A DNA stretch of 29,119 bases from a virus. The stretch is taken from the IMG/VR virus record IMGVR_UViG_3300004463_000541, positions 1-29,119 of that record, one strand, 5' to 3'. How positions within the stretch are numbered: position 1 is the first letter of the stretch; each line of letters begins with the position of its first letter. The notes beneath the pieces were generated by a model. That model did not search any database, was not told the origin of the DNA, and saw nothing but the letters and a program-made list of their open reading frames with translations. Shown here one piece after another: positions 19,980 through 29,119 of the stretch. A program made the position numbers and the translations under genes.

Positions 19980-22457
19980 ATGTCCAACCTAGCGCCACGT
20001 GGAGACGCGGTCACCGTCCTCATGACGGTCGATAGCACGGACCGGATCTCCCTGTTCAGCGGCGGGACCAAAATTGCAGAGCAACAGGTCGGCAGCAAGA
20101 CCCTGTCCACGACATTGACCGTCGCTAGCCTGCGTTTCGGCGCCACAGAACCCAATGGCTACGATCCGGGAACCTTCCTGATGGAGCAGGTCTCCGGCTG
20201 GACTTTCCCGCTGGTCGATAGCCATGCCCTGCCAGTCTCCGCCGACCTCAACTACGTCCAGGTTACTCCGCAGACCGTCAAGCCGGTCGTCAGCATTCCA
20301 CCCGCGCTGACGGTCAAGGAAGGAGAAACCCTACAGATCCCCGTCACCAAGGAAGGAGCCGGAGCCTGCACCGTACAGCTACGCACCATTGGGGTCAGCG
20401 CCGTGACGCCGACCGACTATACCGGCTTCCTCCTGCCCGTCGCATTCGGCGCCAACGACACCGTCGTGACCGTCCCCTTGGTCACGATCGCCGACACGGA
20501 AGACGATCCGGACCAGACGCTGAAGATCGAGCTGAGTCTGGCCGGATCTACGGATTGCACCCTCGGAAATTCAAACGGAGTCATCACCATCACGGAACCG
20601 CCCCGGATATCGGTTCCGACTACGGCCAGTGTCAAGGAAGGGAATGTCCTTTCCGTCATTGTCACGAAGCTGGGGAGCGGGGCCTGCTCGGTGACGTGGA
20701 GAACTTCCCCTGACACCGCCACTGTCCTGTCCTCAGACTATACCGGTGTCAGCGCCACGACGCTGAACTTCACCTCAGCCGAGACCAGCAAGACGATCAC
20801 GGTGCAGACCCTTACAGATGCCTTGGTCGAGGGCAACGAGTTTTTCTACATCTTCATCGAGAACCCGGCCAACTGTAAGGTCACGACCGGCTCCTGCAAG
20901 GTCACGCTCCTGGACGCCAACAGTCCGGAAGTGCCGGTCCAGACCGCCTATACCCCGGCATCAGGATTTGCCTCCGCCGCCGACTGCGGTCTCGGTTATC
21001 CGGTCTATAAGGTTACCAACCTTGACGACAGCGGACCTGGCTCCCTGCGGGACTGCGTCTCCGGTTCCGGCCGGATGGTCGTGTTCGAGGTCGCCGGGCG
21101 GATCATCCTGTCAACGGATATCCGCCCCTCCGCGAACATCACTATTGCTGGGGAAACCGCACCGCCGCCAGGCATTACCATCCAAAAAAAAGAACTGGTC
21201 ATCACGAACAGCAATGTTCGAGTCAGCCACATAATCTTCGAAAGGGGGTACGAAAACTCAGACCTCTACCGGGACAACGGCGACGTTGCCAAGATCGGTA
21301 CGGGCAGTTCCGTATCCGCCACCACCCTGCCGGACTACACGCCGAAAACGGCCTACACAAACATCCACATCTACCACTGCGCCTTCTACTGGGGTATGGA
21401 TGAGACGGTCCAAATGTTCCCGTGGAACTCCCACACCCTGAGTGCGAGCTATCACGACTGCATCATCACGGAACCGCTCTACAAGCCGTCCATCTATGAC
21501 TCGACCCTACTCAACCACGTCAAACTCTATTCTCCGTACAATCAGTCTAACCACAATTACGGCATGATCTGTGCCTTTAACACCAAACAGACAGACATTC
21601 AGTACTGCCTGTTTTCCGAGATTTCTATGCGTTGTCCGTTCATCGACCACAGCACAGAAATCGTCATCGCCAACAACATTGCCAACAACTGCCGCAATGG
21701 CGCTACGATCCAACAAAACCAGTACATGGTTCTCAACACGACGACCAACACGTTGGAGTCAAAGCCACTTCCTGATTCCTATACCTACAAAGTCACGTGC
21801 AAGGGCTACCTGGCGATCTCCGGACCGGACACGATAACCTCTGTCTACGGCGGCTTCCGCTTTACCAGCTACCTCCTACCGCAGCCCGCCAACTCCAAGG
21901 TCTTCGTCGAAAAACTGTACGGTTGGAAGGGCGGCACTTCCAACAGCACCTACATGCAGCCGAACGATTACGTCACCTACGGTAGTACCGCAGCCGGTTA
22001 CAACGACGTCAAGGGTAAGCCCTACTGGCTCGACGCCATTGGCACCAAGGTGGCCGTCGAGGTCACGACGCCGCCGATCGACACGCCGACACCGACCGTT
22101 GGTCTTGAGGCGCAGGAGATCTTCGACCGTGCCGTCCTCAACGTCGGTCCGCGGCCCAAGGAGATCCGTAACCTGATCGACAAGAAGACCGGCGCCATCG
22201 GGAACCACAATGTCGCCCGTTCCGTCACAAACTTGAAAAATAAGACCGGCCGCTGGGTCAATCACCAAGACGAAACCCAGGTCGGCGGCTACTACGCCCC
22301 GGTCAAGGTCACCCGCACTCTGAATGCCACCGCCAAGTTTCCGGACGGCACCCTGATCGGTGACATCCCGGCCCAACCGCAGCCCGCTACGGCCACCAGC
22401 AAGGCCACCATGAAGGCGTGGCTGCGCAAGCACCTGGACCAAGTCCAGAACGACTAG
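19980..22457 (+). CDS. Tailspike candidate 1: two Calx-beta domains + PL1 pectate-lyase-like beta-helix
   Basis: 825 residues. After an approximately 95-residue N-terminal beta domain (start MSNLAPRGDAVTVLMTV) come two Calx-beta domains (about 98-203 and 205-312), each with a GAC cysteine and a second cysteine near the end. From about 324 is a right-handed beta-helix of the polysaccharide lyase family 1 type: YKVTNLDDSGPGSLRDCV, VVFEVAGRI, ITIAGETAPPPGITIQ, CAFYWGMDETV, HNYGMICAF and MRCPFIDH (about 551), where the Arg aligns with the catalytic Arg of R-x-x-P/SRNPR segments. The end (DRAVLNVGPRPKE, VNHQDETQVGGY) also matches bacterial PL1 enzymes. It has no signal peptide, consistent with a virion depolymerase cleaving an acidic polysaccharide. 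Substrate unknown. Confidence 0.85.
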   Translation: MSNLAPRGDAVTVLMTVDSTDRISLFSGGTKIAEQQVGSKTLSTTLTVASLRFGATEPNGYDPGTFLMEQVSGWTFPLVDSHALPVSADLNYVQVTPQTVKPVVSIPPALTVKEGETLQIPVTKEGAGACTVQLRTIGVSAVTPTDYTGFLLPVAFGANDTVVTVPLVTIADTEDDPDQTLKIELSLAGSTDCTLGNSNGVITITEPPRISVPTTASVKEGNVLSVIVTKLGSGACSVTWRTSPDTATVLSSDYTGVSATTLNFTSAETSKTITVQTLTDALVEGNEFFYIFIENPANCKVTTGSCKVTLLDANSPEVPVQTAYTPASGFASAADCGLGYPVYKVTNLDDSGPGSLRDCVSGSGRMVVFEVAGRIILSTDIRPSANITIAGETAPPPGITIQKKELVITNSNVRVSHIIFERGYENSDLYRDNGDVAKIGTGSSVSATTLPDYTPKTAYTNIHIYHCAFYWGMDETVQMFPWNSHTLSASYHDCIITEPLYKPSIYDSTLLNHVKLYSPYNQSNHNYGMICAFNTKQTDIQYCLFSEISMRCPFIDHSTEIVIANNIANNCRNGATIQQNQYMVLNTTTNTLESKPLPDSYTYKVTCKGYLAISGPDTITSVYGGFRFTSYLLPQPANSKVFVEKLYGWKGGTSNSTYMQPNDYVTYGSTAAGYNDVKGKPYWLDAIGTKVAVEVTTPPIDTPTPTVGLEAQEIFDRAVLNVGPRPKEIRNLIDKKTGAIGNHNVARSVTNLKNKTGRWVNHQDETQVGGYYAPVKVTRTLNATAKFPDGTLIGDIPAQPQPATATSKATMKAWLRKHLDQVQND

Positions 22458-22481
22458 GAAACGTCACAGAGGCGCTACAGG

Positions 22482-22503
22482 GCGTGCCCGGCAGCGGGCG
22501 CGC
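22482..22503 (+). other. Strong GC hairpin between the two spike genes
   Basis: CGTGCCCG-GCAG-CGGGCGCG (22483-22502) pairs over 8 bp with one G-U, extendable by one G-C pair to 22482/22503, and is followed by TTCCTCCCTCCC. It sits in the 79-nt gap between paralogous spike genes and could reduce downstream expression or protect the upstream mRNA. There is no clear U-tract. Confidence 0.45.
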
Positions 22504-22536
22504 GTTCCTCCCTCCCGTGCAAAAGGAAGTCATCCT

Positions 22537-24612
22537 TTGTCCCTCATCACCGTCAGCCTCCCCCAGAAACTCGTCGTCAACGAGGGCGAGTCTGTCAAGA
22601 TCCCATTGACCAAGACCGGTATCGGCGCTTGCTCCGTTCAACTCAGGACATCCGGCATCACCGCGACGACGCCCCTAGACTACGAGGACGTCAGTGATCC
22701 TCATGTCGTCAGTTTCACAGACACCCAGATGGAGAACGTCGGTCTACTGGTCACCCTACCGGACGAACTGATCGAAGGTCAGGAGATCCTCACGGTGTGG
22801 GCGCTAAATGCCGAAAACTGTGTCATCATGCAGCCTCGCTGCGAAGTCACCATCATCGACAAGACCGCCCTGCCGGAGCCGCCGCCAGACGCCGAGCTGC
22901 CGACCGTCAGCATCGCGGAGAAGGTCAGCGGTTTGGAAGGAACGGACCTTGCCATTCCCCTGACCAAGACCGGCACGGGAGCCTGCCAGGTCAGCCTCGT
23001 GACGGCTGGGGACACCGCCCAAACGCTGGAGGATTACACCGGCTACAAGACACCGCTGGTCGTCACCTTCGCCGAGGACCAGTCCCAGGTCATGGCAACC
23101 CTGCCGCTGCTGGCCGATACCGCCCCGGAGTCAGACGAGATCCTGAACATCTACGTCAAGGACCCGGTCAACTGCGTGATCGGAAACGGCAAGTCCGAGA
23201 TCACCATCATCGAGAACCCGGAGACCAACCCGCCGCCGGGGGAAGAGCCACCGGTTGGTGACGGCACGGTACCGAGCGCCCCGACGGGTAAGTATCCGCG
23301 CGCCGTCGGTTTTGCCACCGCCATGGCCGCCGGACGGGGCAAGCCGTTCTACCGGGTGACCAACCTCAACGACAGCGGTCCCGGTTCTCTGCGGGAAGCC
23401 ACCAGGGGCGGCAATCGGATGATCGTCTTTGAGGTCGGCGGCTGCATCAAGCTTAAGAGCACGCTGCTGATCGATGCTGACAACATCACCATCGCCGGTC
23501 AGACCGCACCGGGCAGCGGCATCACGATCCAGGCCAAGGAACTGGTGATCAAGGCATCCTTCATCCGGATAGAGCACATCAATTTCGAGCGCGGTCATGA
23601 TCCCAGTAATCTAGGCAATGCCGACTGCGTCAAGGTCAACCCCGGCGCCGACAGCAGTCGCTGGTCCCGCTCTAACGTCCACTTCAACCACTGCTCGTTC
23701 ATGTGGGGGATGGACGAGACAGTCGAAATATGGCCAGCATCGGGCAAACTGACCAACGTTTCCTTCACCAACTGCCTGTTCTCCGAGCCGATGTGGCGCC
23801 CGCAGAAGCTCGGCTACGCGCCGCACGAAAAGGTCAAGGCGGGCAAGCAGAGCGAGCACAACTACGGCGTCCTAATCGGCTTCAACACCAAGAAGGTAGA
23901 CATCCAGCACTGCCTGTTTTCCGACATGTACATGCGCTGCCCATTCATCGACCACGGCACCACGAGTGTCATCGCCAATAATATCCTGATGAACGTCAGG
24001 ATGGGCGTCACGATCCAGCAGAACCGCTCGCCGAAGCCGACCGCCGCCTGCCTGGTCAACTGCCAGGGAATCTTGGTGATCTCCGGTCCGCAGAGCAGCG
24101 ATGCCACCGGCTTTCGCTTCCATTCCTACCACGACAAATGGCCGTCCGGCTCGGCGGTCTACGTCTCCAACCTGTACGGCTGGAAGGGCGCCAACGGCGC
24201 GATCACGCCGGGCACCAACGTTACTTTCAGCCGGGGACAGCCGGTCCAGGGATCTAACAACACCAAGGTTCGGGTCTCAAAGTCGCCGATCGAACCGCCG
24301 GGCACCACCATCAAGGCGCTGAGCGCCAACGATATCCATGACCGTATCGTCAACAATTCCGGCCCGATGCCAAAGGTCTCTAAGCGTCCGGCCTCGGTTG
24401 CCAGGATCATCAAGAAGGTAGCCACCAAGACCTCCGGTTGGGTCGATCATCCGAGCCAGGTCGGCGGCTTCTCCAGCTACCCCGTGGTTACCCGGAAGCT
24501 GGAGGATGCAACCCTGCCCGATGGCAGCAGAATCCCGGTCCCCAACCACGGGGATGCGGAAGGGGTTCAGAAGTGGCTCGACATTTTCAACAGCCTCGTG
24601 AGCTACGACTGA
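22537..24612 (+). CDS. Tailspike candidate 2: paralogous Calx-beta + PL1 pectate-lyase-like protein
   Basis: 691 residues. TTG start chosen for the well-placed AAGGAAG site 7 nt upstream. It lacks the N-terminal domain of the preceding paralog and begins directly with Calx-beta domain 1 (about 1-108: KTGIGACSVQLRTSG) and domain 2 (about 110-225: KTGTGACQVSLVTAG), then a proline-rich linker and a PL1 beta-helix from about 252: YRVTNLNDSGPGSLREAT, ITIAGQTAPGSGITIQ, CSFMWGMDETVEIWP, HNYGVLIGF, MRCPFIDH (about 466), ending DRIVNNSGPMPK and WVDHPSQVGGF. All PL1 landmarks are kept, so both copies may be active. Without the N-terminal domain it may attach to the virion differently, perhaps through the first spike. 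Confidence 0.83.
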   Translation: MSLITVSLPQKLVVNEGESVKIPLTKTGIGACSVQLRTSGITATTPLDYEDVSDPHVVSFTDTQMENVGLLVTLPDELIEGQEILTVWALNAENCVIMQPRCEVTIIDKTALPEPPPDAELPTVSIAEKVSGLEGTDLAIPLTKTGTGACQVSLVTAGDTAQTLEDYTGYKTPLVVTFAEDQSQVMATLPLLADTAPESDEILNIYVKDPVNCVIGNGKSEITIIENPETNPPPGEEPPVGDGTVPSAPTGKYPRAVGFATAMAAGRGKPFYRVTNLNDSGPGSLREATRGGNRMIVFEVGGCIKLKSTLLIDADNITIAGQTAPGSGITIQAKELVIKASFIRIEHINFERGHDPSNLGNADCVKVNPGADSSRWSRSNVHFNHCSFMWGMDETVEIWPASGKLTNVSFTNCLFSEPMWRPQKLGYAPHEKVKAGKQSEHNYGVLIGFNTKKVDIQHCLFSDMYMRCPFIDHGTTSVIANNILMNVRMGVTIQQNRSPKPTAACLVNCQGILVISGPQSSDATGFRFHSYHDKWPSGSAVYVSNLYGWKGANGAITPGTNVTFSRGQPVQGSNNTKVRVSKSPIEPPGTTIKALSANDIHDRIVNNSGPMPKVSKRPASVARIIKKVATKTSGWVDHPSQVGGFSSYPVVTRKLEDATLPDGSRIPVPNHGDAEGVQKWLDIFNSLVSYD

Positions 24613-24646
24613 TCAGGGGCGCGCAAACGGTGGGAGTGTACCTGGA

Positions 24647-25057
24647 ATGGCCAATGATTACGAAGAGGACGTTCCCCCGAGAAAAGTAAAGATGTCCAGC
24701 AACGCCGATCTTCTTGAGTATCGGATCGAAGCCCTGGAGCGGGAGATGCGGGTGTTCCGGGGGCAGGCGGATCGCAAGTACAGGGATCTCGACGAGGCTA
24801 TCCAGAAGCGGTTTCAGGAACTGGCGGATACCTTGGACAAAAAAATAAAAGAAATCTCGGCCCATATTGAGAAAAAAGACAAAGAAATCATGGAAGATAT
24901 GGAGAAGAAGGTCAAGGAAATGGAAGGGGATTTCGATAAAAGAACCTCCAGAATAGAGTCCTTCCTGCTGGGAGGGCTCTGTCTTGTGGCGACTCTGTTC
25001 ATCGGAGCCCTTTTCGCAATCACCAATGGCTCAATGCCGGGAGTTCCAGGAGGATGA
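24647..25057 (+). CDS. Coiled-coil protein with C-terminal membrane segment, XhlA-like holin candidate
   Basis: 136 residues. Residues about 20-105 form a long, highly charged helix with heptad spacing (ALEREMRVFRGQADRK, KKIKEISAHIEKKDKE), then one TM helix (about 106-126: FLLGGLCLVATLFIGALFAI) and a short GP-rich tail. The amphipathic helix plus C-terminal TM layout is that of XhlA-type lysis proteins, and it opens the membrane/lysis block, so an accessory-holin role is plausible. Sequence identity to XhlA is not claimed. Codons around 24835-24960 are A-rich (runs of A7 and A6), unlike the flanking genes. The stop overlaps the next start (ATGA). Confidence 0.6.
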   Translation: MANDYEEDVPPRKVKMSSNADLLEYRIEALEREMRVFRGQADRKYRDLDEAIQKRFQELADTLDKKIKEISAHIEKKDKEIMEDMEKKVKEMEGDFDKRTSRIESFLLGGLCLVATLFIGALFAITNGSMPGVPGG

Positions 25058-25620
25058 TAAAGTTCAGCAGTCGAACCTCCACCCTGCCGTCGAGGGATAC
25101 TTTCGTCAAATGGGGAATGAGGATTTGCACCGCCATCATCCTGTCTGGATTGACGGTGGTCTTCTACTGGATGGCGATCGACCGGGAAATTCCGGTCACC
25201 GTCGACTATGGCGAAGTCATCCGCTTCGAGCATCAGTCAGACGACTCCTGGGTGATGATCGTCAAGTGGCATGGTGTTCGCCATCGCCAGTGCTGGGGCA
25301 ATTCGAAGCGCTGGATTTCCGGCGACCTGTTCCTGCCGTTGCCAGACATTCCCTATCCGCCGGAGAGACCGCAGCAGGAACTCGGGAAGTTCACCTGGGA
25401 AGTGCCGATCCACATCCCGCCCTACTACGTCAGTACCGGCCATGTCAGCGGTAAGTATGCGATCCGGATCTTCTATGCCTGCAATCCGATCCAGGAATAC
25501 CTGTTCCCGATTACGGTCGAGCCAAACCCAATTCCGTTCGTTATTCCGACCGACATGCCGATGAAACGTCTTCAGATGGGAGACCTCGGGGCAGCCCCGC
25601 CGAAAGGTCCGGAAAAATGA
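25054..25620 (+). CDS. One-TM envelope protein, paralog 1 of 3
   Basis: 188 residues, family not recognised by name. A cytoplasmic N-terminus of about 20 residues ending RDTFVKWGM, a TM helix (about 21-41), then a periplasmic beta-rich domain starting AIDREIPVTV. Landmarks shared with the next two genes: YW...DR..P just after the TM, an R-x-C (C80), W..P.......VP or IP strands, and near the end YACNPIQEYLFPI (C143). The two periplasmic cysteines are about 63 residues apart in each paralog, suggesting a disulfide. GGAGG directly abuts the ATG, an unusually short spacing that should weaken initiation unless coupled to the upstream stop. A role in lysis or superinfection immunity is possible but not shown. 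Confidence 0.7.
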   Translation: MIKFSSRTSTLPSRDTFVKWGMRICTAIILSGLTVVFYWMAIDREIPVTVDYGEVIRFEHQSDDSWVMIVKWHGVRHRQCWGNSKRWISGDLFLPLPDIPYPPERPQQELGKFTWEVPIHIPPYYVSTGHVSGKYAIRIFYACNPIQEYLFPITVEPNPIPFVIPTDMPMKRLQMGDLGAAPPKGPEK

Positions 25621-26177
25621 TGGATTTCATTCACAGTCCCCATCACATGCCGAAGCGGGACGCCTTCGTCAAGTGGGGAATGACCCTCTCGACCGCCAGT
25701 ATCCTGGCCGGTCTGTCCGTCTGCATCTACTGGACCGTGTTAGACCGACGAGTTCCCATCGACGTCCTGCGCGGAGAGGTTACGCTGTACCAGAAACAGT
25801 CTGACGACTCCTGGGTCTTCGTCGTTAGGTGGTACGGTATCCTGAAGCGGCGCTGTGGCGGCATCTCCAACCGATGGATCGTTGATGGCTTCCGGCTGCC
25901 GCTGGCCGACATTCCCTATCCGGCGGAAACCGAACCGATCGAACTCGACAAGGAATTCCATTGGGAGGTTCCGGTCCACGTCCCAAGCTATTACGTCTCC
26001 ACCGGCCACATCTCCGGACGTTACCGCGCCCGCTTCCTGTATTCGTGCAATCCCCTCCAGGAGCGGATCTTCCCGATCTCCTACGTGCCACCGGCCGTCG
26101 AGTTTACCCTTCCCGTCAAGGACATGCCCGAAGAGATCCCAAAAACGCTCAGCAAGCAGCCGTCCAGCGTCCGGTGA
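25617..26177 (+). CDS. One-TM envelope protein, paralog 2 of 3
   Basis: 186 residues, the closest relative of the preceding protein: PKRDAFVKWGMTLSTASILAG against PSRDTFVKWGM, QSDDSWVFVVRWYG against QSDDSWVMIVKWHG, ADIPYP against PDIPYP, YYVSTGHISGRY against YYVSTGHVSGKY, and SCNPLQERIFPI against ACNPIQEYLFPI. TM at about 21-41; cysteines C80 and C144 correspond to C80 and C143 of paralog 1. Two adjacent ATGs (25617 and 25620) could start it; the first overlaps the previous stop. The DNA has diverged at most third positions, so the duplication is old and both copies have been kept by selection. Confidence 0.7.
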   Translation: MMDFIHSPHHMPKRDAFVKWGMTLSTASILAGLSVCIYWTVLDRRVPIDVLRGEVTLYQKQSDDSWVFVVRWYGILKRRCGGISNRWIVDGFRLPLADIPYPAETEPIELDKEFHWEVPVHVPSYYVSTGHISGRYRARFLYSCNPLQERIFPISYVPPAVEFTLPVKDMPEEIPKTLSKQPSSVR

Positions 26178-26197
26178 AAAAGAGGGAAAACCGTCCA

Positions 26198-26674
26198 ATG
26201 AGAGACATGATAGCCGCATCATTCTCGATCGCGGCCTTTTGCCTTGCCATCCTGACGCTGATCCCGGCAGCGCTGATCGTCTATTGGGCGCTCGACCGAA
26301 CGCCGCCGATCCGGCACCTGATGGGTCAGTTCATCCAATGGGAAAGCCTGGACCCGCCGATCGTCAAGATCAAGTGGATGGCGGAACGGAGTCGGCTCTG
26401 CCTCGGCCAGACCACGAGCTGGATCTTCACCGACAGGGCGATGGATCTGGCACCCTCCGCCTTGCCTCACAAGGACGCCGTCAACAAGGATGGAGCCGGT
26501 CCCGTCTCATGGGCCGAGTCGATCCCGATCCCGCCGGAAGCGATGAAAAACAGTGGAGAGGACATCGTCCTCAGTGTTCGCTTTACCTGGTACTGCAATC
26601 CCCTCCAGGAATACTGGCCCATCGAAATGGACGCCCCGCTGATCAACCTGCCGATCCCGGACAGGCTTAAATGA
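26198..26674 (+). CDS. One-TM envelope protein, paralog 3 of 3 (shorter)
   Basis: 158 residues from ATG 26198 with an AGAGGGA site about 10 nt upstream; the frame is open further upstream, but earlier starts would run through the previous gene. TM at about 7-30 (SIAAFCLAILTLIPAALIVYW), then ALDRTPPI, matching the DR..P landmark of its neighbours. The shared pair is C68 (RSRLCLG) and C133 (WYCNPLQEYWPI). The middle diverges from paralogs 1 and 2 (SWAESIPIPPEAM replaces the YYVSTGH strand). The first 20 residues of the neighbours, before the TM, are missing, so the cytoplasmic part is almost absent. Confidence 0.7.
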   Translation: MRDMIAASFSIAAFCLAILTLIPAALIVYWALDRTPPIRHLMGQFIQWESLDPPIVKIKWMAERSRLCLGQTTSWIFTDRAMDLAPSALPHKDAVNKDGAGPVSWAESIPIPPEAMKNSGEDIVLSVRFTWYCNPLQEYWPIEMDAPLINLPIPDRLK

Positions 26675-26702
26675 TCATTTTGGCAATGTTAGGTAAACAA
26701 CA

Positions 26703-27494
26703 ATGGTAACATCCCTCGGATTGAGAAATAACAACCCGATGAACCTCCGGCATTCCGGAGACAAGTGGATCGGCATGCGCGCGGAGCAGACGGACCCCGG
26801 CTTCGTTCAGTTCCAGACCAGCTTCCACGGCCTGCGCGCCGCCGCCAAGAACCTGCTGACGTACTATCGGCGGTACGAGCGCAAAACCGTCTCTGCCATC
26901 GTCACCGCCTGGGCTCCGAGCAGCGACGGCAACGACACCGCGGCCTATATCACCACGGTGGCAAAGTCCATGGGCGTCGATCCTGACGGTATCATCGACC
27001 TCAACGACAAGCTCACCCTGCGCCGCCTGATGGATGCCATGATCCGCGTCGAGCTTGGGTCCCAACCCTACAGCACCATTGAACTGGAGGCAGCCATAGA
27101 GTCCGCCCATACGACAGACCAGGCACCGCCTGTTGTCGAGACCCGCCCGTCCCCCGGACCTTCCCCTGACGGAAAACCGCCGCTGGTCGACCAACCCAGC
27201 AAGATGCCTACCCGCAAGATCCTGGTCGGCGGCATCGTCGGCGCCTGTACCTTCATGCTGATGGTGATTTGGAACCGGATCTTCCCGGAAAGCCCGCTCA
27301 GCACTGAGTATGCAACGGAAATCGCCAGCGCCATCGTTCTCGGGGTGACCCTGGTAACCCAGTATATGGTCCGCAACCGGGCTACGGATGTCCCTCCCGG
27401 AGACGAGGGAGGTGTGGAGAATGGGACTCCCGTCAAAAAGGACGTCGTGATTTATCCAGCCCCGACCAAGTCCAGGACGGAGACGCCGTCGTGA
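26703..27494 (+). CDS. Murein-hydrolase-like protein fused to a two-TM holin-like tail
   Basis: 263 residues. Residues 1-130 match the phage lysin/structural type that begins RNNNPxNxRxxxxxWxGM (here LRNNNPMNLRHSGDKWIGM), continues FVQFQTSFHGLRAAAKNLLTYYRRY, then IVTAWAPSSDGNDTAAYITTVAK and ends near a PYS segment; such proteins are annotated as PRD1 P5-like structural proteins or muralytic enzymes. A proline-rich linker (about 135-170) leads to two TM helices (about 173-190 and 205-222) joined by a short loop, then a polar tail. This C-terminal module looks like small phage holins. A single chain with lysin and holin-like parts would tether the enzyme to the inner membrane. The catalytic residue cannot be assigned from sequence alone. 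Confidence 0.7.
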   Translation: MVTSLGLRNNNPMNLRHSGDKWIGMRAEQTDPGFVQFQTSFHGLRAAAKNLLTYYRRYERKTVSAIVTAWAPSSDGNDTAAYITTVAKSMGVDPDGIIDLNDKLTLRRLMDAMIRVELGSQPYSTIELEAAIESAHTTDQAPPVVETRPSPGPSPDGKPPLVDQPSKMPTRKILVGGIVGACTFMLMVIWNRIFPESPLSTEYATEIASAIVLGVTLVTQYMVRNRATDVPPGDEGGVENGTPVKKDVVIYPAPTKSRTETPS

Positions 27495-27706
27495 CCGCAT
27501 CCAACCGATGGACATGCTATCGCTGTACGATGGAATTCCATATCCGGAAATCGCACGGTGAAGCGGAACACCACCTCTGTCCCGAATGCGGTCTACCGTT
27601 CTGGTCTGCCAAACTGAGATCAGAGGCCCCTTCCCATGGCCGGGTGCGGGTCGGTGTCGATCCCCAGTGCTCCCTGATCCACCCGCTTGAAGGCGTCTGC
27701 CTATGA
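27491..27706 (+). CDS. Small zinc-ribbon-like protein, unknown role
   Basis: 71 residues, GTG start overlapping the previous stop (GTGA). Two CxxC knuckles, C9-C12 (TCYRC) and C30-C33 (LCPEC), with histidines between them, form a zinc-ribbon or rubredoxin-like knuckle of about 35 residues; the rest is short and polar. There is no TM segment. It could be a small nucleic-acid-binding or regulatory protein. The stop overlaps the next start (ATGA), so it is part of the coupled lysis-region operon. Function not recognised. Confidence 0.6.
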   Translation: MTASNRWTCYRCTMEFHIRKSHGEAEHHLCPECGLPFWSAKLRSEAPSHGRVRVGVDPQCSLIHPLEGVCL

Positions 27707-28080
27707 TACGCTATGCAATCCCGCTCCTGGTCCTGGCGATCTCCGCCTGCGCCGGGTTGCCGCCGGACTTTCCTAATTCCACGGGTGCAGGCACCCAGGA
27801 AGAAACCCTCTGGGGGCGTGCGGTTGCCCGCTACAGCGAGCACCAGCATGCGGCCCTGGATTACGCCATCAAGTGCGATGCCCAGTTGTCAGCGGATGTC
27901 CAGCCGTGCGATGTGGTCGTGGACCAGTTGGCCGATATCGACAACCTTGGGGCAGCCGTCCAGAAAGACGGAGAACAGGCGTTGCTGCGCAAGGACCTGC
28001 CCCGACTCAACGAAGCCATCCGGGACCTGGACGCCGTGGGAGATGAACTGACTCTAGCCATGCAACGAGGTGTACCATGA
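27703..28080 (+). CDS. Small lipoprotein, outer-spanin candidate
   Basis: 125 residues. An N-terminal signal peptide ends in a lipobox (I-S-A-C16), so the mature protein is about 110 residues and lipid-anchored. Residues 30-125 are alpha-helical and acidic, with two further cysteines (C42 and C52). A lipoprotein just after the lysin-like gene is the usual place for the outer-membrane spanin that fuses inner and outer membranes at the last step of lysis, but it is longer than Rz1 and not proline-rich, so this is an inference from position. The overlap with the next gene (ATGA) suggests a pair. Confidence 0.6.
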   Translation: MIRYAIPLLVLAISACAGLPPDFPNSTGAGTQEETLWGRAVARYSEHQHAALDYAIKCDAQLSADVQPCDVVVDQLADIDNLGAAVQKDGEQALLRKDLPRLNEAIRDLDAVGDELTLAMQRGVP

Positions 28081-28349
28081 TTCCGCTGATCGCCAGCCTG
28101 GTCTTGACCGGCCTCGACCTCGCCGTCCAGGTGGACCGCCAGCGCCGCCGTCCCGGTTACGTTCCGAATGAACGGGAAGTAGAGGCAGCCAAAACCGTCG
28201 AGCAGTTCAGAGAGCTTCTGGCATCGGCCGTTCGGGAAAACCGCACGATGTCCACGGACGAAATCAAGTTCTGGTTCAGCCGCGTGAACGCTGACCGGAA
28301 CGAGTTGCAGCGGCGGGCCGATGAAAATGAGGCCGGGGGGATGAAGTAG
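28077..28349 (+). CDS. Small helical protein with hydrophobic N-terminus, possible partner of the lipoprotein
   Basis: 90 residues. GAGGTG binding site 6 nt before the ATG, which overlaps the lipoprotein stop. Residues 1-18 are hydrophobic (MIPLIASLVLTGLDLAV), then a basic stretch (RQRRRPGY) and a charged helix (about 30-85). This could be a membrane-anchored partner of the lipoprotein (inner spanin-like), although inner spanins are usually longer and encoded first. No family recognised. It is the last plus-strand gene of the operon, and its final 74 bases are overlapped by the convergent minus-strand gene. Confidence 0.6.
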   Translation: MIPLIASLVLTGLDLAVQVDRQRRRPGYVPNEREVEAAKTVEQFRELLASAVRENRTMSTDEIKFWFSRVNADRNELQRRADENEAGGMK

Positions 28350-28968
28350 GCTTGTTGTTGGCTTTGGCCTTGTTGGACCCGCCTCCTCCCGGAGATTTTT
28401 CCTGCTTCATCCTGAACGATCCTGAACGAAACGGGTACGTCCTGGATATCTTTCCTTCGGACATCGTCCACACGGAGATGTAGCCATCCGCCTGGGTGGG
28501 CCAGCGCTTCTTCTTGCGGGCGATCCGCCTAACCCTTCGCGCGGCTTTCTCCACGGCTGCAATCGCCCGCCCGATCCCCTTCTCCCCCTTGGCGTAGAAC
28601 CATTCCGTGCCGCGCCTCGATCCTCTGACCCAGGTTACCCGCCAGCGCGCCATGAACCGATGCGCGACGAATTCCACCGAAGCCGGAAAGGGCACATGGT
28701 CCAGCTTCCAGATGCAGACCGGATCACCTCCCATATCCCGGCGGATCTCCTCGATCCGGACAGTGATGTCCCGCCGCCGGGTAACGCCGATCTTGATGAC
28801 ACCGACATCCGACAAGCTTCTGTCCCACAGGATATAAACCGTTCCCGTCATGGCATCCCCGAGCGTGACGCGCGGCCTGAAGCGCCTCACGACCCGCCAG
28901 ACCAATCGTCCCAACCATATCACGAGAGAAAACAGGGCAAAGACCGTTGCGGTCCATTCCACCGGCAT
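28276..28968 (-). CDS. Membrane-anchored T5orf172 (GIY-YIG superfamily) nuclease candidate
   Basis: 230 residues from ATG 28968; a TTG nine bases earlier is possible, but AAGGA and GAGG sites serve the ATG. One TM helix (about 6-24) is followed by a strongly basic stretch (RLVWRVVRRFRPR), so the rest should face the cytoplasm. Residues about 41-126 match the T5orf172/Mug113 branch of the GIY-YIG fold: GTVYIL, VIKIGVTRR, R71, VEFVAHRF with E99, and TEWFYAK with E122. The C-terminal 100 residues are basic and low-complexity (KKKR, GGGGSNKAKANNK), probably DNA-binding or disordered. It is the only phage-like gene on the minus strand and lies at the end of the lysis block, a common site for lysogenic-conversion or exclusion genes. 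The nuclease role is inferred from the fold. Confidence 0.75.
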   Translation of the reverse strand: MPVEWTATVFALFSLVIWLGRLVWRVVRRFRPRVTLGDAMTGTVYILWDRSLSDVGVIKIGVTRRRDITVRIEEIRRDMGGDPVCIWKLDHVPFPASVEFVAHRFMARWRVTWVRGSRRGTEWFYAKGEKGIGRAIAAVEKAARRVRRIARKKKRWPTQADGYISVWTMSEGKISRTYPFRSGSFRMKQEKSPGGGGSNKAKANNKPTSSPRPHFHRPAAATRSGQRSRG

Positions 28969-28987
28969 GAGCCTCAATCCTTTGCTG

Positions 28988-29020
28988 AACGGGGCGGCTC
29001 CTCGTCGGAAACGCCCCGTT
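28988..29020. terminator. Hairpin at the window's right edge, possible terminator
   Basis: AACGGGGCG (28988-28996) pairs perfectly with CGCCCCGTT (29012-29020) around a 15-nt loop, followed on the plus strand by TTTGG. The strong stem and partial T-tract suit a terminator in either direction, lying between the minus-strand gene and whatever follows. Beyond it, 29021-29119 holds no gene that can be assigned. Confidence 0.45.
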
Positions 29021-29119
29021 TGGTCTATCTGTCAGATCTGGTCTTGATCTGCCGCTGGCTATGTCTGGTAGCCCTCAAGCTGCTGACCATCGGCGTCCTG
29101 TGCCTTCTGGTAATCAGGC

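Follow-up and report, generated by a model that had tools for sequence, protein, structure and literature searches.

Near the 3' end of a 29,119-base virus record (IMG/VR record IMGVR_UViG_3300004463_000541, positions 1 to 29,119; the whole stretch is the window in what follows), four short genes, here called X, A, B and C, lie between two tandem spike genes and a putative endolysin gene; the last three of them encode members of a single family of predicted membrane-anchored proteins, family Y. The same locus is carried by the 56.6-kb IMG/VR contig L001, in which A is 100% identical. The coding content of the window comprises a lambda-like tail module (tape measure, M-, L-, K- and I-like proteins), a tail fibre and the spikes, and 3' of the spikes come X, A, B and C, followed by endolysin-like, Zn-ribbon-like, lipoprotein-like and small helical open reading frames (ORFs). 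The four genes in question are:

24647-25057, + strand: gene X, 136 amino acids (aa), charged and helical (coiled-coil-like) in its N-terminal part, with a single transmembrane (TM) segment in its C-terminal part, from the ORF and hydropathy.
25054-25620, + strand: gene A (Y family), 188 aa, with a TM helix at residues 14-42, an immunoglobulin (Ig)/FN3-like beta-sandwich at about 48-163, and C80 and C143, from the ORF, AlphaFold and fold comparison.
25617-26177, + strand: gene B (Y family), 186 aa, an A-like paralogue with C80 and C144.
26198-26674, + strand: gene C (Y family), 158 aa, a shorter and more distant paralogue with a TM helix at 2-32, a beta-sandwich at 38-152, and C68 and C133.

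A sequence-only reading of this DNA had described A, B and C as three adjacent genes for TM-anchored proteins, and the coordinates and motifs that it gave proved exact. Each of the tandem genes encodes one predicted N-terminal TM helix and an ectodomain with a cysteine pair, and the shared motifs are YW, then (D)R..P, R.C and CNP(I/L)QE, then FPI or WPI. The unit is nevertheless larger than that reading had it, as it includes the upstream ORF X, whose stop overlaps the start of A. X and A overlap by 4 nucleotides (ATGA), as do A and B (4 nucleotides), while gaps of 20 and 28 bases separate B from C and C from the endolysin gene; a longer reading of C from a TTG start at 25961 is unnecessary. 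The spacing of the two cysteines is conserved as claimed (63, 64 and 65 residues in A, B and C), whereas the claim of strong divergence holds for C, whose identity to A- and B-type proteins is 21-28%, and not for A and B, which are about 50% identical to each other. Local alignment scores exceed those of 500 shuffles by 22 standard deviations (sd) for A-C and 16 sd for B-C, and by 19 and 11 sd when only the ectodomains are compared. These protein comparisons show that the three genes go back to a common ancestor.

Orthologues of all three genes are present in L002 and L003, with 62-74% identity per protein. L004 has A followed by a partial C at the contig end, in the same order and with no B between them, and is the exception among four distinct related loci, the other three of which hold A, B and C. 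In L003 the block from the spikes through X, A, B and C to the endolysin stands near the end of a 143,333-base virus contig, while the records of its relatives are 56 kb. In a tree of 22 rows, the window group forms one clade (96/96), the C proteins form a clade within it (98/97) and the B proteins fall on one side of a branch (89/100); outside the window group the tree was not used, as 10 of its 19 inner branches are open and long branches meet there. The simplest history for these sequences would be a duplication giving A and C before the split of L004, and then either an A-to-B duplication or the loss of B in L004. Frequent loss of single copies, which the sequence-only reading had named as evidence against itself, is thus partly answered: three of the four loci are complete, and the missing B of L004 may be either a loss or an A-to-B duplication that came later. 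Pairwise ratios of nonsynonymous to synonymous divergence (dN/dS) among the window, L002 and L003 are 0.14-0.30 for A, B and C and 0.17-0.25 for the endolysin, a rough guide only because dS is near saturation (0.76-1.83 in several comparisons, and infinite for two X pairs). These ratios show purifying selection on all copies of A, B and C, and together with the recurrence of the trio in L002 and L003 they support functional constraint on the three copies, in line with the earlier suggestion that all of them are probably functional.

No convincing family was found for A, B or C in PHROGs, Pfam, NCBIfam or PADLOC, so that none of these four libraries ties the three proteins to a characterised family of lysis or tail proteins; such a tie would have counted against a new system. 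The best library match for the three was to phrog_7636, of unknown function (E 0.093, one member of 11), and a match of C to DUF5389 (E 0.12) was taken as chance. The PADLOC hidden Markov models gave 0 families for A, B, C and the Y proteins of L012 and L051, a result that does not cover exclusion proteins outside PADLOC. Searches of phage records by tblastn returned nothing for B or C; with A they returned two wastewater contigs named 'Listeria phage' (E 0.5), in which the matching reading frame encodes an OppA-like peptide-binding protein, and the match was set aside as chance. The record L008 (OR848696.1), named Listeria phage LM 4-14-1, encodes an OppA-like peptide-binding protein and a permease-like protein and looks like bacterial DNA that has entered a phage collection.

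Relatives of Y in single copy were found in prophages of Methylobacterium and other Alphaproteobacteria, and in phages of Rhizobium. A pattern search combined with tblastn led to a Methylobacterium terricola prophage (L012) and to the virus contigs L016 and L018, and tblastn with these three reached Rhizobium phage RHph_X3_2, at E 9e-6 and 3e-10. The same searches gave weak matches (E 0.1-0.7) to RHEph04-type phages, whose full genes match a family profile that contains them. The family profile recovers A, B and C, and the relatives, in all 10 records at E 1e-13 to 1e-60, by construction since these rows are in the model; L048-L051 were first found with the A5 profile, which had none of them. 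Profile searches found matches to Y in 6 of 397 genomes of the order of Methylobacterium, 3 of 385 of its class and 2 of 398 of its phylum, tallies that overlap because G001 is counted in all three and G204 in two. Within this sample of sequences, the Y family looks rare, phage-borne and alphaproteobacterial. The cysteine pair is present in 22 of 22 full-length rows, with a spacing of 58-68, and an N-terminal TM helix is present in all; the C protein of L004, at a contig end, is outside the cysteine count, and the start of the TM helix of L018 lies across a contig end. Late and weak Y matches came from L072 (E 1e-14) and L073 (E 3e-4), both of which have the X-Y arrangement, and its presence there lends weight to these weak matches as well as to the pair. 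Candidates L052 and L053 (E 1e-6 to 7e-6 with the A5 profile) were not recovered with the A7 profile, have no clear X and are outside all counts. The Y gene of virus record G004 spans the ends of L018 (1-471) and L074, which have a repeat of about 127 bases (counted by eye) in common; to judge from this repeat, the record, though listed from a mid-gene start, is probably a circle.

Y starts within the stop of X, by the 4-nucleotide ATGA or a 1-nucleotide overlap, in all 16 sequence-supported pairs and in L074 (17 in all), whereas 24 of 76 pairs of same-strand neighbours from three annotated phage stretches, two X-Y pairs included, overlap likewise. The 16 pairs are not independent, and with L018/L074 they were grouped by similarity into 11 lineages. 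This overlap of stop and start shows the reading frames of X and Y to be coupled. X proteins have 60-158 aa, and their top hydrophobic stretch is near the C-terminus in 16 of 16, with 4-19 residues beyond the scored stretch (the stretch is weak in L016 and L012). In X of the window, which is kept in L002, L003 and L004, hydropathy peaks at 2.51 at residue 107. This protein has a weak match to phrog_937, 'hemolysin' (7.5e-5), among 37 PHROG matches of coiled-coil type, and the labels XhlA, coiled-coil and ZorA were not used for it, because the matches either fail the cut-offs or are scattered among dozens of coiled-coil families unrelated to one another.

AlphaFold modelling of A, based on 16 family rows, gave a TM helix at 14-42 and beta-sandwich strands over 48-163 at a mean predicted local distance difference test score (pLDDT) of 85, and the model of C has the same order of elements at a mean pLDDT of 91. 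In both models one cysteine immediately precedes the third strand and the other immediately follows a long strand (132-142 in A, 122-132 in C), positions compatible with a disulfide. Fold comparison placed A with solved Ig/FN3-like domains at Z up to 9.4 over 98-110 residues (a GH2 Ig-like domain and the ApaG-type 1tza) and C with solved Ig/FN3-like sandwiches at Z up to 8.6; these values are moderate, and a Z of about 8 may reflect the common arrangement alone. Because the best-fitting solved sandwiches have unrelated functions, the fold names no function for Y, and the viral models that fit it are uncharacterised phage proteins. Before the TM helix, which is the sole hydrophobic helix, K/R outnumber D/E in A and B and are balanced with them in C. 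The topology predicted for Y is a TM anchor followed by a periplasmic Ig-like domain with a disulfide.

The neighbourhood of the pair points to lysis. A lysis enzyme or holin is encoded within about 4 kb of X-Y in 9 of the 11 lineages: endolysin phrog_873 in the window group, Phage_lysozyme2 in L012, GH25 in L016, Phage_lysozyme in L018/L074 (in L074) and also in L054, an annotated lysozyme-like protein or endolysin in each of L019 and L020, GH19 in L048/L049/L060 (in L049), and GTA_holin_3TM in L050/L051 (in L050, no lysis gene being identified in L051). Just 5' of X, spanin-like pairs, that is, a TM protein followed by a lipoprotein in another frame, overlapping or adjacent, were recognised by eye in L019, L020, L048, L049 and L060. 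A structure search independently found a similar arrangement in Loktanella phage pCB2051-A, through the protein M4QT02. The order in this phage is muramidase, spanin-like pair, a small TM/coiled-coil gene and, last, the 192-aa Ig-like candidate LOKG_00048, to which M4QT02 was assigned by protein length; the X-like gene has its TM segment at the N-terminus and a 14-base overlap.

In the window, the genes that follow C are:

26703-27494, + strand: putative endolysin with a lysozyme-like N-terminal part (phrog_873 'endolysin', 6.3e-50, residues 4-140).
27491-27706, between the endolysin and the lipoprotein: small Cys-rich, Zn-ribbon-like ORF, with weak matches to phrog_6422 (Lar-like, 0.0045) and Zn_ribbon_19 (1e-4).
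27703-28080, + strand: small lipoprotein-like ORF whose signal sequence ends LAISAC, with a weak match to phrog_26675 'endolysin' (0.0013).
28077-28349, + strand: ORF of 90 aa with a short N-terminal hydrophobic stretch and a helical tail, without a match in the PHROGs and Pfam scans.
28276-28977, - strand: T5orf172-domain protein (PF10544, 6.4e-7; weak PADLOC PDC-S57, 4e-4), kept in L002 and L003.

The C-terminal region of the endolysin is hydrophobic and reads by eye as two TM segments, and the lysozyme-like proteins of L019 and L049 likewise end in hydrophobic segments. Judged by their sequences, the lipoprotein-like ORF is possibly o-spanin-like or another lysis accessory, and the 90-aa ORF possibly i-spanin-like. 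No Zn-ribbon-like ORF was seen in L002, where the lipoprotein gene is directly 3' of the endolysin gene. On the other side of X, the spikes at 19980-22457 and 22537-24612 (beta-helix/Calx-beta) are paralogues in tandem with about 38% identity over 747 aa, and the spike pair is also present in L003 and L004; tandem duplication in this part of the window thus reaches beyond A-B-C to the spikes. The integrase domain PF00589 was not found in 7 of 7 virus records, including the longer twin of the window, a search that did not extend to serine integrases and in which the records may be incomplete. Megablast of 22000-29119 against phage records gave no match.

Taken together, we read A, B and C as a triplicated Y of an X-Y late module of alphaproteobacterial phages, in which X and Y probably form an inner-membrane complex that modulates lysis, and we put the probability of this explanation at roughly 0.5. 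X would hold its helical part on the cytoplasmic side, as predicted, by a C-terminal TM anchor, and Y would cross the membrane with one TM helix and expose a disulfide-stapled Ig/FN3-like domain to the periplasm. Translated in a coupled manner, the two would probably assemble into one inner-membrane complex, with the ectodomain of Y as its binding or sensing part, and would probably act on the lysis machinery by timing or inhibiting the holin or by releasing or restraining a membrane-bound endolysin. Restraint or release of the endolysin is one concrete possibility, since the triplicated Y adjoins an endolysin with a seemingly membrane-embedded C-terminal region. In the window phage, Y would have undergone two duplications, and the ectodomains of its three copies may combine in a mixed assembly; the hetero-oligomer suggested by the sequence-only reading is plausible and, like complex formation and lysis control, inferred. 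Lysis is the likeliest process because of the neighbourhood. Among the roles suggested in the earlier reading, lysis control is accordingly the one favoured by context (single-copy relatives in lysis cassettes, coupled to a small membrane protein), while a periplasmic receptor shield has found no specific support.

Several observations weigh against this explanation. Adjacency to lysis genes is circumstantial, and L072 and L073 have no lysis gene in the stretch read, their X-Y pairs being beside tail genes or at a prophage end. The sequence support for L054 is weak (E 6.8e-4, no match with the A7 profile), and it was kept because of its X and the adjacent Phage_lysozyme gene. The Loktanella protein has no significant sequence similarity to Y and is for this reason counted as an analogue. 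The X sequences are too diverged for homology of all X to be demonstrated; Pfam XhlA (PF10779) does not match X of the window, and its matches to X of L051 (4.7e-6, 27.1 bits) and L050 (0.0077, 16.8 bits) fall below the cut-off of 34.7 bits. Finally, several relatives already have an apparent endolysin, holin and spanins, so that X-Y would be superfluous for completing the cassette. That relatives seem to own these components suggests a regulator rather than a core part.

A bolder version, to which we give a fairly low probability, would make X-Y an undescribed two-component transmembrane lysis regulator of alphaproteobacterial phages, with X as helical subunit on the cytoplasmic side and an Ig-like, disulfide-stapled Y that senses a periplasmic cue, such as incoming phage DNA or tail, a spanin or the state of the endolysin, and so sets lysis; in this phage the three diverged Y proteins would build one hetero-oligomeric ectodomain. 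The main rival explanation is superinfection exclusion: A, B and C would bind an incoming tail tip, a tape measure or an inner-membrane receptor and block DNA entry, and triplication would widen their range. A single-TM protein with a variable periplasmic domain of binding type (Ig-like) suits this role, tandem duplication and divergence are what a recognition arms race would be expected to produce, and in the window the genes stand just 3' of those for the tail fibre and tailspikes. But X-Y is part of one late-gene run and has no obvious promoter to itself in the window, with 0 sigma-70-like sites on the + strand over 24500-29119 (a consensus scan, and so weak evidence), and the low dN/dS values give no average sign of diversifying selection. 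The lack of a PADLOC match also speaks against exclusion, which would moreover leave unexplained why Y is always coupled to X and lies near lysis genes, and we regard it as rather unlikely.

The position of Y 3' of two beta-helix spikes in the window, and among or after tail genes in L072 and L073, would alternatively suit an envelope or virion-assembly helper, which could serve the tail or tailspikes as a periplasmic chaperone, as an adhesin or as a minor structural component. Structural proteins of phages commonly contain Ig-like domains. Anchoring in the inner membrane would, however, be unusual for virion proteins, and the relatives have no common type of tail or spike in the stretches read, whereas X and mostly lysis neighbours are common to them; as this explanation fits the tail neighbourhood only, we consider it improbable. 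It is similarly doubtful that Y is itself a class III holin or antiholin like T of phage T4, crossing the membrane once (N-in/C-out) and exposing a disulfide-bonded domain with a regulatory role to the periplasm. The predicted topology of Y is that given for class III holins in PMC3556154, and T4 T has one TM segment, a periplasmic globular domain and a key disulfide according to PMC12162936. Against this, other holin candidates adjoin X-Y in relatives (GTA_holin_3TM in L050), and the Y models contain no bridge helix of T4 type, the first strand beginning 5 residues past the TM helix (helix 14-42 followed by strand 48-60 in A; helix 2-32 followed by strand 38-51 in C). No solved chain matches Y by sequence (0 matches in a Protein Data Bank search with the family profile); no T4 holin chain is among the fold-comparison matches listed, which is no evidence of absence.

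The interest of the pair lies in the fact that lysis cassettes of alphaproteobacterial phages are poorly known and that their last genes are annotated as hypothetical proteins. As a conserved and coupled pair of small genes in prophages and cultured Rhizobium phages, X-Y is a candidate for an additional regulator of lysis in Gram-negative hosts, and its outer subunit, Y, can multiply and diversify within one phage, as the window shows. Should exclusion be true instead, an Ig-like membrane exclusion family would be of similar interest.

In open-licence PMC literature, as covered by titles and the starts of abstracts, no description of the X-Y pair was found. In the T4 T/RI system, T is a one-TM holin whose periplasmic globular domain is regulatory and in which a disulfide matters (PMC12162936). 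Y would share with it a single TM helix, with a predicted N-in/C-out orientation, a pair of cysteines in a globular domain predicted to be periplasmic, and a probable regulatory partner, and differs in having no detectable sequence similarity, no bridge helix after the TM helix, an Ig/FN3-like beta-sandwich, a tail-anchored partner X and, in some cassettes, other holin candidates. The plan of X recalls the releasin gp25 of phage Mu (DUF2730), which PMC9239132 describes as membrane-tethered, mainly cytoplasmic, encoded downstream of the endolysin genes and needed for release of the signal-anchor-release (SAR) endolysin. X would likewise be a small membrane-tethered, mainly cytoplasmic protein, but its TM segment is at the C-terminus in 16 of 17 cases (the exception is Loktanella), gp25 is described there without a Y partner, and DUF2730 matched no X scanned (those of the window, L002 and L004, among the best 25 families). 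In the PBSX cassette of Bacillus subtilis, XhlA is reported to be essential for lysis and is accompanied by a beta-sandwich protein, XepA (PMC6834076). The X proteins of L050 and L051 are XhlA-like, below the cut-off; XepA, however, is described there as soluble, pentameric and two-domain C2-like, without a TM segment, whereas Y is a single-domain TM protein for which homology to XepA is not demonstrated. With the two-component spanins Rz/Rz1, X-Y shares small overlapping genes for membrane proteins at the end of lysis cassettes, and an i-spanin has one N-terminal TM segment and a periplasmic domain (PMC3556154). The ectodomain of Y, however, is modelled as a beta-sandwich and not as helical, the partner X is no lipoprotein, the two genes that overlap A (X and B) have no lipobox, and several relatives have a spanin-like pair of their own upstream of X-Y. 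By analogy, X-Y would work like T4 T/RI, the Mu releasin and PBSX XhlA, while standing outside each of these groups by the features that define them. Among proteins of cultured phages, its sequence relatives are QWY83367.1 of Rhizobium phage RHph_X3_2 and YP_009598485.1 (RHEph04 gp43), both of which have a coupled X and are encoded 3' of endolysin and spanin-like genes, and which, unlike the Y proteins of the window, are single-copy and annotated as hypothetical proteins.

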